From assembly GCF_039535095.1 (NCBI RefSeq), contig NZ_BAAAWN010000001.1, positions 4,278,001 through 4,342,000 on the forward strand: DNA of 64,000 nt, in the 5' to 3' direction. A model generated the notes under the pieces. That model was not told where the DNA came from. It ran no database searches and was given only the letters and a program-made list of their open reading frames with translations. Positions 3,610-8,386 of the stretch are shown here, one piece after another (position 1 is the stretch's first letter; every line of letters begins with the position of its first letter). A program made the translations under genes and the position numbers. The DNA is from Arthrobacter ramosus (GTDB lineage: Bacteria; Actinomycetota; Actinomycetes; Actinomycetales; Micrococcaceae).

Positions 3610-4062
3610 TTACTTGAAGAGCGGTATGATCCCGAGCTGCTGGAGGACCTTCACGCCATCATCAAGTCCGACCTCTTCGACGATAAGGCCGTCAACGACC
3701 TTGAGTACGGTCGTGCCGGTGAACCTCATGCTCTTGCCGGACGCGGCAGGTACGGAGCCGATGGGCAAGTCATCGAAGGCGATGGGGCCGGTGTGGACGC
3801 CTCCTCCCTCCCATTGGCCAACTACGTAGTCGCCTTCGGCGATGAGGTCGGCGGTGCCCCAGAAGTTGAGGTCTGGGAATGCGCTACGGAAGCGGGTCGC
3901 GAAGTCACGGACTTCGTCACGGCCAGTCATGGGTTTGTGCAGCGAGTAATGGAAGCGGATGTCGGGGGCGGCGAGCTCGTCGATGACGGCGGGGTTGAAG
4001 TCACTGCCCCAGAACTCGGTAAACCAGCGTCCGACGATAGCCTTGTTCTCTTCAACCGACAT
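3610..4062 (-). CDS. SnoaL-like ester cyclase / NTF2-fold protein
   Basis: A 150-residue NTF2-like protein. The N-terminal helix ENKAIVGRWFTEFW, the segment AAPDIRFHYSLHKPMTGRDEV and the later strand motif GDYVVGQWEGGGVHTGPI are typical of the SnoaL/ester cyclase group. These small cone-shaped proteins bind hydrophobic ligands or catalyse cyclisation or hydrolysis; the actual ligand here is unknown. A clear ribosome binding site (AGGAG, 6 nt before the ATG) supports the start. It stands alone, with a hairpin behind it and about 200 bp separating it from the alkylation-type operon. Confidence 0.85.
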   Translation of the reverse strand: MSVEENKAIVGRWFTEFWGSDFNPAVIDELAAPDIRFHYSLHKPMTGRDEVRDFATRFRSAFPDLNFWGTADLIAEGDYVVGQWEGGGVHTGPIAFDDLPIGSVPAASGKSMRFTGTTVLKVVDGLIVEEVGLDDGVKVLQQLGIIPLFK

Positions 4063-4117: not shown

Positions 4118-4297
4118 CTAGAAGACGTTCGCGGTGGGCAATCCGTGAGATGAAAACAGCCAGGTCCTTGCGCCGGTGGCGATACGGCCGTCGGTGTCGA
4201 GGTGCCAGGGTTCAGCTTCGCGGGTGACCCCGGCGATTCCGGGCAGGTTATGGAGCCCGACTAGGTGGAGGGCCCGGCGGTCGTTGTTTTCTTCCAT
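4118..4297 (-). CDS. possible small ORF overlapping the end of the Ada-domain gene
   Basis: A 59-codon frame with coding-like third-position GC begins inside the 3' end of the Ada-type gene (ATG at 4297) and runs to a TAG at 4118. It includes the stretch LHNLPGIAGVTREAEPWHL and a hydrophobic end. I recognise no family. There is no good ribosome binding site, so it could be a small downstream gene of the operon, the tail of a decayed longer gene, or chance. Confidence 0.25.
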   Translation of the reverse strand: MEENNDRRALHLVGLHNLPGIAGVTREAEPWHLDTDGRIATGARTWLFSSHGLPTANVF

Positions 4298-4542
4298 GCC
4301 TGGTGGCGGTCTTTGCAGCAGGCTCCACATGGCCGATAGCCCGCGGCGAGTGCGGTGGCTTCGTCGGCGAAGAACAGGCGATTCTTGGCGTACCCGCCAC
4401 GTGCGATCGCGCGTAGAGCGGCGGGGCAATCGAGGCGTCCGTAGATTTTCCCACCGCGGTGACCGCCCCACGTGCCCTTGATCGGAGATGTGTAGGGGCG
4501 GCCATCGGCCCCGGTGAGCGTGTAGTTCTTCACTATGCTCAT
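4261..4542 (-). CDS. stand-alone Ada-type metal-binding domain protein
   Basis: A 93-residue protein consisting almost only of the Ada N-terminal zinc domain, the part of E. coli Ada that repairs methylphosphotriesters and senses DNA methylation. The core YGRLDCPAALR ... FFADEATALAAGYRPCGACCKDRHQAW matches that domain. Cys39, Cys72 and Cys75 line up with three of the four Ada zinc cysteines. The methyl-accepting first cysteine of Ada (C-x3-C) is replaced by Gly35, and an extra Cys76 follows. A direct methyl-acceptor role therefore looks unlikely unless Cys76 substitutes (inference). Its ATG overlaps the stop of the oxygenase gene (ATGA), making it the last gene of a three-gene coupled operon. 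Confidence 0.8.
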   Translation of the reverse strand: MSIVKNYTLTGADGRPYTSPIKGTWGGHRGGKIYGRLDCPAALRAIARGGYAKNRLFFADEATALAAGYRPCGACCKDRHQAWKKTTTAGPST

Positions 4543-5273
4543 GCTGCGTCGTGGAATACCAGGGCGAGTGTGTGACGCTCGCCGGAGCGGATGGCGGAGA
4601 CGCCGTGCCGTACTGGCGCGGCGGACCAGCCGCGAGCCGATTTCACAGGCCGGTCGCGGGTGGTGAACACGTAGCCGTGTCCGTGGGGCAGCAGGGTCGC
4701 CGTGCCCCGCGATTGTGCGCGGGGGCGTTGTTCGAGCAGCAGAAACTCGCCGCCGGTGTGGTCCACGCCCGGCTCGTTCAGGTTGATGACCACTTGGAGT
4801 GGGAACACCAGATCACCGTAAAGGTCGCGATGAAGGGCGTTCCAGTCCTTCTCGCCGTACTTCAGCAGGATCGCCGTGGACTTGGTCTGACCGGCGTCGT
4901 GGCACATCTGCAGCCACTCGTCGAGCGTGTCCGGCCACGGAGTTGGTCGACCAAGCTTCGTCCACCAGTCGCGGGCGATAGGCAGCAGCCGGGGGTAGAG
5001 CGCCTGCTTCAGCCGCTCAATGGGTTCGGGGTAGGGAGTCCAGAAGTACCGGTACTGGCCCTCGCCGAAACGGTGACGACCCATGTTGATCGTGCTGCGG
5101 AACAGCTCGTCGCTCTCGTACAGGTCACGAATCTCCGCGGCCTCCCCGGGCGTTAGGAACTGCGGGAGAAGTGCCCCGCCGTACTCGTTTATCTCATCAG
5201 CTACGACCGACCAGTCAGCCGACTCGACTCGATCACGCCACGGGTTGTCCGCCCAAATTTCTCCGCCAGTCAT
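4539..5273 (-). CDS. 2OG-Fe(II) oxygenase (COG3826-like)
   Basis: A 244-residue member of the 2-oxoglutarate/Fe(II) dioxygenase superfamily. The iron triad is visible as His148-x-Asp150 in NALHRDLYGD and His223 in VRHGVSAIRSG, with an Arg a few residues later for 2-oxoglutarate. It belongs to the COG3826-like group (TGGEFLLLEQRPRAQSRG is characteristic) rather than to classical AlkB, and its substrate is unknown. The location between a sigma-Ogt fusion and an Ada-type domain suggests a role in repair of alkylation damage (inference). Both ends overlap neighbours by 4 bp (ATGA), so translation is coupled along the operon. Confidence 0.85.
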   Translation of the reverse strand: MTGGEIWADNPWRDRVESADWSVVADEINEYGGALLPQFLTPGEAAEIRDLYESDELFRSTINMGRHRFGEGQYRYFWTPYPEPIERLKQALYPRLLPIARDWWTKLGRPTPWPDTLDEWLQMCHDAGQTKSTAILLKYGEKDWNALHRDLYGDLVFPLQVVINLNEPGVDHTGGEFLLLEQRPRAQSRGTATLLPHGHGYVFTTRDRPVKSARGWSAAPVRHGVSAIRSGERHTLALVFHDAA

Positions 5274-6391
5274 GCTGCAGCCTCCAGTTCGAGCAGCATC
5301 GTCTTGGCCTCCAGGCCGCCGATGTAGCCACCGAGGGACCCATCGGTGCGCAGCACGCGGTGACACGGAACGACGACCGGGAGGGGGTTGGTCGCGCAAG
5401 CGGTGCCGACGGCACGGACTGCCTTCGGGTTGCCGACCATCTGGGCCATCTCCTTGTAGCTGCGGGTCTGGCCATAGCCGATGTCCGGCAGGTGCCTCTG
5501 GACGAGCTGGCGGAAGCCACCTGACAACGACAGGTCCAGCTGTACATCGAAGCGCTTCCTGCGGTGCTCGAAGTACTCGTCCAGTTCACGTGCCACGACC
5601 TCCAGCTGTTTCGGGGAACGCAGAATGCGCGGGCTGATTTTCTCCGACAGCGATTCGAGGACACGGTCGTGGTCCTCGACCGCGTACGCGACCCGGACAA
5701 GTCCTGTCGGTGTGGCTGCGAGCAGCAGCTTCCCGACAGGACTGTCCACGGTCGTGTAGGCAACGTCGAGGAGGCCCTCCGCTTGTGCCGCGACCTCCAG
5801 TCGGCGATGCAGCACCGCCAACTTCTCGGCGTCGATGGGCGCTGCCAAGCCCGTGAGGGTGTCATCACCCTGGATGTCACTCATGATCTTGCCCCTTTCG
5901 CCAGCTCTGGCTGGCTGGCTCCGCGCGCCCGGATAGTTCCTTCTGAGGTTCTTGAGGCCATCGGCCGAGGCTCTTCGTGCGGCCTCGACTGTACCGCCGA
6001 GAATTGTCGAGATCTCCGCGTACGACATCCCGACGAGATAGCGGAAGGTGATCGCCTGCCGCTGTTTCTCAGGGAGCTTGCCAACGTACATCCACACATC
6101 GGTGTTATCCGCGCCGGGAATTCCCAACGCGGTCGGAGCCTCAGGCAGCTCCGCCACAGGCAAGGGGATTCGCTTCGCAGCACGGTGGACGTCAATGGCT
6201 TTCCGGCGCGCGATCGTGACCAGCCAGGCTTCGACGTTCGCAGTCTCTGGAAGGTCCGGGTAGGCACGCATCGCGGCAAGAAATGTCTCCGACCATGCGT
6301 CATCCGCGTCATGCACCTCCAAAAGCGCGCGACAGACCCGCAGCACGGTAACGCCGTGCTGCACGACCACTGTCTCGAACGGATGCTTCAT
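5270..6391 (-). CDS. ECF sigma factor fused to O6-methylguanine-DNA methyltransferase (Ada-like fusion)
   Basis: One open frame of 373 codons holds two complete modules. Residues about 5-74 are sigma-70 region 2 (DADDAWSETFLAAMRAYPDL, then VEAWLVTIARRKAIDVHR). Residues about 100-152 are region 4 (KLPEKQRQAITFRYLVGMSYAEI with its helix-turn-helix). Residues about 209-373 are an Ogt/AGT domain with active-site PCHRV (Cys343) and the preceding VRAVGTACATNP arginine-finger segment. No stop separates them. Ogt transfers alkyl groups from O6-alkylguanine to its own cysteine, so a fusion to a promoter-recognition module could turn damage into transcription, as Ada does. I chose the ATG at 6391 because it overlaps the stop of a leader ORF. 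An internal ATG at 5884, preceded by AAGGGG, could also yield Ogt alone. Confidence 0.88.
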   Translation of the reverse strand: MKHPFETVVVQHGVTVLRVCRALLEVHDADDAWSETFLAAMRAYPDLPETANVEAWLVTIARRKAIDVHRAAKRIPLPVAELPEAPTALGIPGADNTDVWMYVGKLPEKQRQAITFRYLVGMSYAEISTILGGTVEAARRASADGLKNLRRNYPGARSQPARAGERGKIMSDIQGDDTLTGLAAPIDAEKLAVLHRRLEVAAQAEGLLDVAYTTVDSPVGKLLLAATPTGLVRVAYAVEDHDRVLESLSEKISPRILRSPKQLEVVARELDEYFEHRRKRFDVQLDLSLSGGFRQLVQRHLPDIGYGQTRSYKEMAQMVGNPKAVRAVGTACATNPLPVVVPCHRVLRTDGSLGGYIGGLEAKTMLLELEAAA

Positions 6392-6438
6392 GTTGATCTC
6401 ATTGAATACGGCCAAGGCGAGTCTGTCGTGATGTTCAT
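6388..6438 (-). CDS. 16-codon leader peptide upstream of the sigma-Ogt fusion
   Basis: Upstream of the fusion gene there is a short ORF, MNITTDSPWPYSMRST, with a strong ribosome binding site (GGAAGGAAAG, about 3-5 nt before its ATG). Its TGA overlaps the ATG of the fusion gene as ATGA. The fusion gene itself has only a weak site of its own, so its translation probably depends on ribosomes finishing the leader. A regulatory function is inference. Confidence 0.45.
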   Translation of the reverse strand: MNITTDSPWPYSMRST

Positions 6439-6511
6439 TGCTCTTTCCTTCCGTCTCTGCCGTTCTGTCTGCTGTGAAGACGGGCACCGGGTTGAAAACG
6501 TGAGATGTAAA

Positions 6512-6601: not shown

Positions 6602-6619
6602 AATCTACTCGTGTAGATT
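6602..6619. promoter_or_regulatory. perfect 7-4-7 dyad in the divergent region
   Basis: AATCTAC-TCGT-GTAGATT is a perfect inverted repeat between the minus-strand sigma-Ogt operon and the plus-strand acyltransferase gene. It has the size of a dimeric regulator site; the regulator is unknown. Confidence 0.4.
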
Positions 6620-7969: not shown

Positions 7970-8386
7970 CTAGGGTGTTACGGTGAATGATTTCTCTGGG
8001 ACGGCACAGGAAGCGCGCTGCAAAGTGGCGTTGGCGCTTACGCGGTTGTTGCGTCCAGTGTCATCGCACCAATCGATGTTGTGAGGCATAGCGATTACCG
8101 TAGCCTCTCCTGGGGCGGTTCCTGGGGGGAGAACAAAAGTGAAAGTGAAGCCCCCTTTATCACTCATTGGCGCCGTCTTTTCGACGAGCTTGGTACCAGC
8201 AGCGTCCTTAATGTCGAGGTCGACGAGAGCATTGGCACCGTAGCGCGGATTGCACCGGGCGTCGGGCGCGCTGATCGTTAGCTCGTCACCCACCTTTGCG
8301 ACCTCGGGATTTACGGAAAACTTTGGAGGCAAGCAGGGTGGTTCGCCCTGCGATGATGCGCATCCCGACGTTGCAGCCACAGTCAA
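7970..8386 (-). CDS. secreted lipoprotein of unknown function
   Basis: From the TTG at 8386 the frame gives 138 residues, beginning with the end of a lipoprotein signal peptide (lipobox ATSGC, then SSQGEPPC). The mature part is about 125 residues with an Ig-like beta pattern, VNPEVAKVGDELTISAPDARC, and several cysteines. The same frame continues upstream with an ideal signal peptide start (RRVRTARKFGLGAVCVVL), but it offers no ATG, GTG or TTG until a stop. The true start may be a rare ATT codon at 8461, or the 5' end may be damaged. Function unknown. Confidence 0.6.
   Translation of the reverse strand: MTVAATSGCASSQGEPPCLPPKFSVNPEVAKVGDELTISAPDARCNPRYGANALVDLDIKDAAGTKLVEKTAPMSDKGGFTFTFVLPPGTAPGEATVIAMPHNIDWCDDTGRNNRVSANATLQRASCAVPEKSFTVTP

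Follow-up and report, generated by a model that had tools for sequence, protein, structure and literature searches.

A private, probably accidental fusion of an ECF sigma factor to an O6-methylguanine-DNA methyltransferase within a conserved, little-studied sigma-led operon of predicted alkylation repair

The adaptive response of Escherichia coli is organized around Ada, in which an alkyl-accepting methyltransferase is coupled to the transcription of alkylation-repair genes (PMC4437013). For Caulobacter, the Cada2 response is described with two co-operonic genes, ccna_00745, which encodes a predicted 2-oxoglutarate, Fe2+-dependent dioxygenase, and ccna_00746, which encodes an Ada-like methyltransferase domain, and both are induced by methylation damage (PMC10957082). 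Among the ECF sigma factors, a review sets out the group ECF122, classified by Casas-Pastor et al. 2021, as one without an anti-sigma factor and with a 6-O-methylguanine DNA methyltransferase as conserved neighbour, and there gives its mechanism as unknown (PMC8999054). The same review describes ECF56, ECF205, ECF294 and ECF295 as whole groups of ECF sigma factors that carry SnoaL-like C-terminal extensions (PMC8999054). A non-exhaustive literature search found neither a fusion of a sigma factor to an O6-methylguanine-DNA methyltransferase (Ogt) nor a tested function for an ECF122 member.

The locus that we compare with these systems lies in Arthrobacter ramosus, within the window, that is, the whole stretch of 64,000 nucleotides that was analysed. 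An original prediction had described a 373-codon frame there in which complete sigma regions 2 and 4 are followed by an intact methyltransferase with a PCHRV motif, leaving the strand unstated. The frame is present and belongs to the minus strand, on which it runs without internal stops from the ATG at 6391 to a stop codon at 5272–5270 (Table 1); reading of the plus strand over the same interval is interrupted by a stop codon. Its domain content is also as described, with Sigma70_r2 (residues 10–74), Sigma70_r4_2 (residues 101–146), Methyltransf_1N (residues 211–287) and DNA_binding_1 (residues 293–371) all matching above the curated Pfam cut-offs. Regions 2 and 4 together with the lack of a Pfam match to sigma region 3 define the first half as an ECF (group IV) sigma factor, and the fused chain scores 53.2 bits with the NCBIfam model sigma70-ECF (cut-off 42.9). 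The second half is an Ogt with an intact active site, the PCHRV cysteine being Cys343 of the fused chain, and TIGR00589 matches at 102.2 bits (cut-off 46.4). The chain has no Pfam match to an AraC-type DNA-binding domain and so does not classify as an Ada regulator; with the NCBIfam Ada model it falls far below the cut-off (100.7 bits versus 345).

Table 1 Features of the sigma–Ogt locus (window positions)
Feature	Positions	Strand	Basis
Fused open reading frame, ECF sigma factor then O6-methylguanine-DNA methyltransferase (Ogt), 373 codons	5270..6391	-	Frame and Pfam
Sigma part, residues 1–153, regions 2 and 4	5933..6391	-	Pfam; match to the separate-sigma profile reaches residue 154
Ogt part; ancestral start ATG 5884 with Shine-Dalgarno-like GAAAGGGG; PCHRV	5270..5884	-	Pfam and relatives
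Junction, AGCCAGCCAGCCAG in the window versus AGCCAGTCAG in same-genus G012, which has one 4-nt unit fewer	5907..5920	-	Alignment
Predicted sigma-dependent operon promoter, CTCACG-N16-CGTCTTC, 84 nt before ATG 6391	6476..6504	-	Motif scan
Second predicted promoter copy, CTCACG-N16-CGTCTTC, 59 nt before the SnoaL-like gene, retained in G012	4121..4149	-	Motif scan
Oxygenase-NA (PF09859) gene, start overlaps ogt stop (GCATGACT)	4539..5273	-	Pfam
Stand-alone Ada-type zinc-binding domain (PF02805), 93 aa, start overlaps oxygenase stop	4261..4542	-	Pfam
SnoaL-like protein gene, putative further sigma target	3610..4062	-	Pfam

Compared with the described systems, the window sigma factor resembles ECF122. 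It has no recognized anti-sigma gene nearby and adjoins a 6-O-methylguanine DNA methyltransferase, as in that group, but here sigma and Ogt form one chain. We word this as a resemblance because the assignment is made by gene neighbourhood and not by profile score: the methyltransferase is a neighbour in the window and in 67 other loci, all of which were retrieved by matches to the sigma–Ogt query, and no anti-sigma gene was recognized with Pfam between 3610 and 7882, an interval that holds the oxygenase, Ada zinc-domain, SnoaL-like and acyltransferase genes. The gene at 7970–8386 has no Pfam match. Like E. coli Ada, the locus appears to couple a methyltransferase with the transcription of alkylation-repair genes; unlike Ada, it has a sigma factor in place of an AraC-type domain, and its relatives are two genes. 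The combination of oxygenase and methyltransferase genes in the operon recalls Cada2, which differs in being placed under a methylation-dependent transcription factor rather than a sigma factor (PMC10957082). The extra C-terminal domain is a likeness to ECF56, ECF205, ECF294 and ECF295, but in the window the extension is Ogt instead of a SnoaL-like tail, and it is present in 1 of the 54 genomes of the genus with a match.

A longer minus-strand frame is also open from 6544 (424 amino acids), and a database sigma factor (P0022, 219 amino acids) retains its N-terminal extension. We prefer the start at 6391 because the predicted promoter (6504–6476) would lie inside this extension and because a one-base gap falls within the same region in G012, a genome of the same genus. 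Separately, a 16-codon leader frame occupies 6388–6438 of the minus strand behind a Shine-Dalgarno-like GGAAGGAAAG, its TGA overlapping the sigma ATG, and a 14-codon counterpart is readable by eye in G012; sigma translation may be coupled through this leader.

The origin of the fusion can be read from the G012 locus (L008), which is 96% identical to the window across 2.8 kb. Its junction is without one 4-base AGCC unit, and sigma (168 amino acids) and ogt are two frames, sigma ending in the TGA of an ATGA and ogt beginning at the overlapping ATG. In the window, the additional AGCC lies close to the 3' end of the sigma gene, shifts the frame and thereby joins sigma in frame to ogt. The separate sigma factor P0022 (25 member sequences), which is 99% identical over the sigma part, ends in SELAKGARS, the same residues as those at the end of the G012 sigma. 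In G012, the ogt frame stays free of stops over the 216 nt that precede its ATG, such that a frameshift of the right sense within the final ~72 codons of sigma would create a fusion; this overlapping layout seems to invite accidental fusion. The ATG at 5884 and the upstream GAAAGGGG are retained in the window. The original prediction had taken this ATG for an internal start that could yield Ogt by itself, and both sequence elements are indeed there; comparison with relatives gives the start a different identity, namely that of the ancestral ogt gene. We regard the fusion as young, private to the window's genome and probably accidental.

Two other accounts of the AGCC unit were weighed. We think it unlikely that the extra unit is a sequencing or assembly error in a strain that has an ordinary two-gene operon. 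In favour of such an error, the difference is a single 4-nt unit in a short repeat that is known from one sequence of the strain; the fused protein itself is absent among the 120 matches listed, in which full-length matches begin at 57% identity, and many other fused database entries appear scrambled or truncated. However, the genome is a single 5.25-Mb contig with 99.98% completeness, errors are usually of the homopolymer type rather than changes of a 4-nt unit, and the junction also differs from that of G012 by base changes adjoining the repeat. A switch in which slippage of the repeat flips the locus back and forth between one chain and two is, in our estimate, highly improbable. The AGCC units are in tandem and a one-unit change toggles the fusion, but there are three units only, and Tandem Repeats Finder reports no tract at this place, so the repeat does not qualify as phase-variable; G012, for its part, has one AGCC and one imperfect AGTC unit rather than a variable tract.

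The two-gene state is the rule across genomes. We compared the junctions of 68 sigma–ogt loci, retrieved by matches to the sigma–Ogt query, of which two are from the window's genome and the rest from genus, order, class and phylum samples and from named genomes. The ogt start codon lies over the sigma stop as a 4-nt overlap, ATGA or GTGA, in 58 loci, the genes are otherwise separate in 9, and the window holds the single fused locus. Among 20 later loci, a sigma match lies beside ogt in 18, none of them a true fusion, and 2 have no sigma beside ogt. One later locus (L154) had been flagged as fused by a script and was rejected on inspection: its sigma gene is split over two frames (~1017–1429), with an intact ogt beside it. 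The genus, phylum and class samples, which partly overlap, contain matches in 54 of 198 genomes (own genome included, E ≤ 1e-30), 66 of 396 (E ≤ 1e-38) and 52 of 393 (E ≤ 1e-45), respectively, and in each sample the only stop-free match to the whole query comes from the window's genome. Matches in G562 and G614 cover both parts, but with a TGA inside. Conservation of the fusion across genera is thus ruled out in these samples. A plasmid-borne locus was also considered and rejected, as one plasmid record matched 17% of the query, in a 2OG-Fe(II) oxygenase gene.

The original prediction of the fused protein as a conserved working form is therefore not upheld: the closest relatives have two genes with a 4-nt overlap, and the fusion amounts to one extra 4-nt unit. 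It had named homologues always encoded as two genes, with a degenerate sigma part, as one finding that would speak against it. Two genes are indeed the state of nearly all homologues, but the sigma part shows no degeneration: relative to G012 it shows five synonymous changes and one non-synonymous change, and ogt shows six and three, respectively. This pattern fits constraint on both halves, which for most of that time were presumably separate genes. For the proposed modulation of the sigma part by alkylation of Cys343, the analysis turned up no evidence.

Fusions of this kind are known as protein entries elsewhere. Among the 120 matches listed for P0003, itself a fused protein, 33 (P0003 included) bear both sigma and Ogt domains, and 28 of these 33 two-domain clusters have a single member. 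When the two-domain clusters were scored against profiles of separate sigma factors and separate Ogt proteins, seven proved near-complete on both (P0002, P0003, P0004, P0006, P0007, P0008 and P0009); in the remainder, one or both halves are incomplete or, in P0140, the order is reversed. The database also contains separate sigma factors with 84–86% identity to the P0003 sigma (P0155, P0158, P0161 and P0162). Because such close separate sigmas exist and the fused clusters are mostly incomplete or single-member, sigma–Ogt fusions appear to arise sporadically, with scattered junctions. P0003 and P0007 are 85% identical and have the end of the linker in common, so the fused form may have persisted in one clade; sequencing errors are possible among entries of this type.

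These entries bear on a further explanation, that the window protein is a selected, working single-chain counterpart of Ada, the C-terminal Ogt sensing damage and modulating the tethered sigma factor. In its favour are the two intact halves, the near-complete database fusions and the linker end common to P0003 and P0007. We nevertheless consider this explanation very unlikely, given the single-member clusters, the close separate sigmas and reversed order noted above, and the ogt start retained in the window. The predicted structure also weighs against it. AlphaFold2, run on the fused chain with an alignment of 60 sequences, gave a best model with a mean pLDDT of 76.1 and a pTM of 0.51 (the four other models had a mean pLDDT of 56.0–62.4), in which linker residues 152–175 have pLDDT < 50 and are predicted to be unstructured. 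The Ogt half is well modelled (residues 211–373, block mean pLDDT 82–96) and sigma region 4 poorly (residues 101–150, pLDDT 52–69). The model output gives no sign of a fixed contact between the halves, which is weak evidence in view of the poor sigma half.

The reading that we favour, an accidental fusion of two overlapping genes, shifts attention to the operon. Directly downstream of ogt are the genes for Oxygenase-NA and the Ada-type zinc domain, and the SnoaL-like gene is next. Oxygenase and zinc-domain genes are also present in the related operons L038, L043 and L066, and the zinc domain in L078. In Leucobacter (L037), ogt is followed by a 2OG-Fe(II) oxygenase of PF13532, which we take to be the family that contains AlkB, and in Tsukamurella (L039) a SnoaL-like match with 83% identity lies downstream of sigma–ogt. 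The window's genome has a second, paralogous locus with the order ogt2–sigma–ogt. The part of the original prediction that tied the sigma factor to alkylation repair gains support from Oxygenase-NA, from the Ada zinc domain and from an upstream motif that links sigma with ogt and ogt2 and, in two further genomes, with oxygenase genes.

Two observations on the neighbourhood stand apart from this argument. By eye, the 93-amino-acid zinc-domain protein seems to have Gly at the place of the methyl acceptor, which we take to be Cys38 of E. coli Ada, and a structure alignment to Ada chains begins after it. A palindrome, AATCTACACGAGTAGATT, at 6602–6619 between the sigma operon and a divergent acyltransferase gene is nearly retained in G012 and is possibly an operator.

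The motif, CTCACN-N16-CGT[CT], precedes sigma in 61 of 67 loci when up to 1 kb of upstream sequence is scanned. A first scan of ~260 nt had found it in 35 of the 67 and was widened because ogt2 precedes sigma in many of the loci that have no motif within that distance. Of 64 matches, 63 have a purine at base 6. In the same 67 loci, the 12 other spacers between 10 and 22 each gave matches in 0–2 loci; no locus has the reversed pattern, and 2 have the motif on the opposite strand. We acknowledge that neither 61 of 67 nor the tally of 68 junctions is an independent count, as these loci were retrieved by the sigma–Ogt query and the motif was first noticed in them. The later loci consequently weigh more: the motif is present in 16 of 17 usable ones (20 minus the 2 without sigma and L143, in which sigma is cut by the contig end), some of them from genera already represented. 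The one usable later locus counted as motif-free is L154. Upstream of its broken sigma gene, at ~909–937, ATCACA-N16-CGTCTAC can be seen by eye, one base off and at the usual spacing. In many loci, a few nucleotides separate the motif from the first gene, whether sigma or ogt2, and the message would therefore be leaderless; the distance to sigma is 84 nt in the window and 83 nt in G012.

The number of matches in the window is not significant by itself (3 relaxed matches against 0.78 expected; at least 3 arise in 4 of 100 shuffles), so the case for the motif is one of conservation. G012 has three matches to the strict pattern, before ogt2, sigma and the SnoaL-like gene. With a spacer of 16 or 17, the window's own genome contains 18 matches (control, 1), of which 3 were kept as putative targets; inspection of translations showed that the other 15 do not precede a recognized alkylation-repair gene, and at least 9 of these lie inside longer reading frames. 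Across 12 other genomes, selected for carrying the locus, 15 of 22 matches precede sigma, ogt2, SnoaL-like or oxygenase genes and the remaining 7 lie elsewhere, compared with a total of 12 matches for the reversed-pattern control. A search for PF09859 in 20 genomes gave 7 positives; two of the seven genes have the motif directly upstream, four follow ogt or ogt2, and one is without a motif. The two are those of G291 and G607, where the motif lies at the start codon of an oxygenase gene far from the sigma locus. The gene without a motif is that of G600 (L135), in which oxygenase and sigma are on different contigs. The distribution of the motif predicts an alkylation-repair regulon that the sigma factor drives itself.

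Overall, we judge it likely that the locus is an actinobacterial alkylation-repair operon led by a sigma factor of the ECF122 kind, ancestrally two overlapping genes that were fused here by an AGCC slip, with a regulon driven by the sigma factor. In the ancestral state, the sigma stop and the ogt start overlap as ATGA, and by virtue of this overlap ogt translation was probably coupled to that of sigma. In the window, the additional AGCC unit has turned coupling into fusion. As the old ogt start and its Shine-Dalgarno-like sequence are retained, free Ogt may still be made beside the sigma–Ogt chain, and the joined protein may itself be functional. Acting at CTCACR-N16-CGTY promoters, the sigma factor probably drives transcription of the SnoaL-like gene, of its own operon and of the paralogous ogt2–sigma–ogt operon. 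Sequence comparison itself establishes that relatives have two genes, that they overlap, that the junctions differ by 4 nt and that the motif is conserved; beyond this, we infer positive autoregulation and induction by alkylation damage.

A more speculative and, on balance, doubtful extension is that the operon works as a split Ada, with Ogt as the damage-sensing partner of the sigma factor. Unmethylated Ogt would restrain sigma, and self-methylated or DNA-engaged Ogt would release it; the freed sigma would then act at CTCACR-N16-CGTY promoters, most of them leaderless, to activate its own gene together with ogt, ogt2 and an alkylation oxygenase gene. If this were true, the recurrent sporadic fusions would represent the tethered pair, with the window as nature's own trial of a single chain.

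Whichever way the sigma factor is controlled, the fusion by itself carries little weight and the operon carries more: around a private, probably accidental fusion lies a conserved, little-studied sigma-led system for alkylation repair. Some actinobacteria seem to run their alkylation response by means of a sigma factor, and the motif is sharp enough for targets to be predicted genome by genome. The predicted targets and the natural fused allele together make the mechanism of ECF122 testable.
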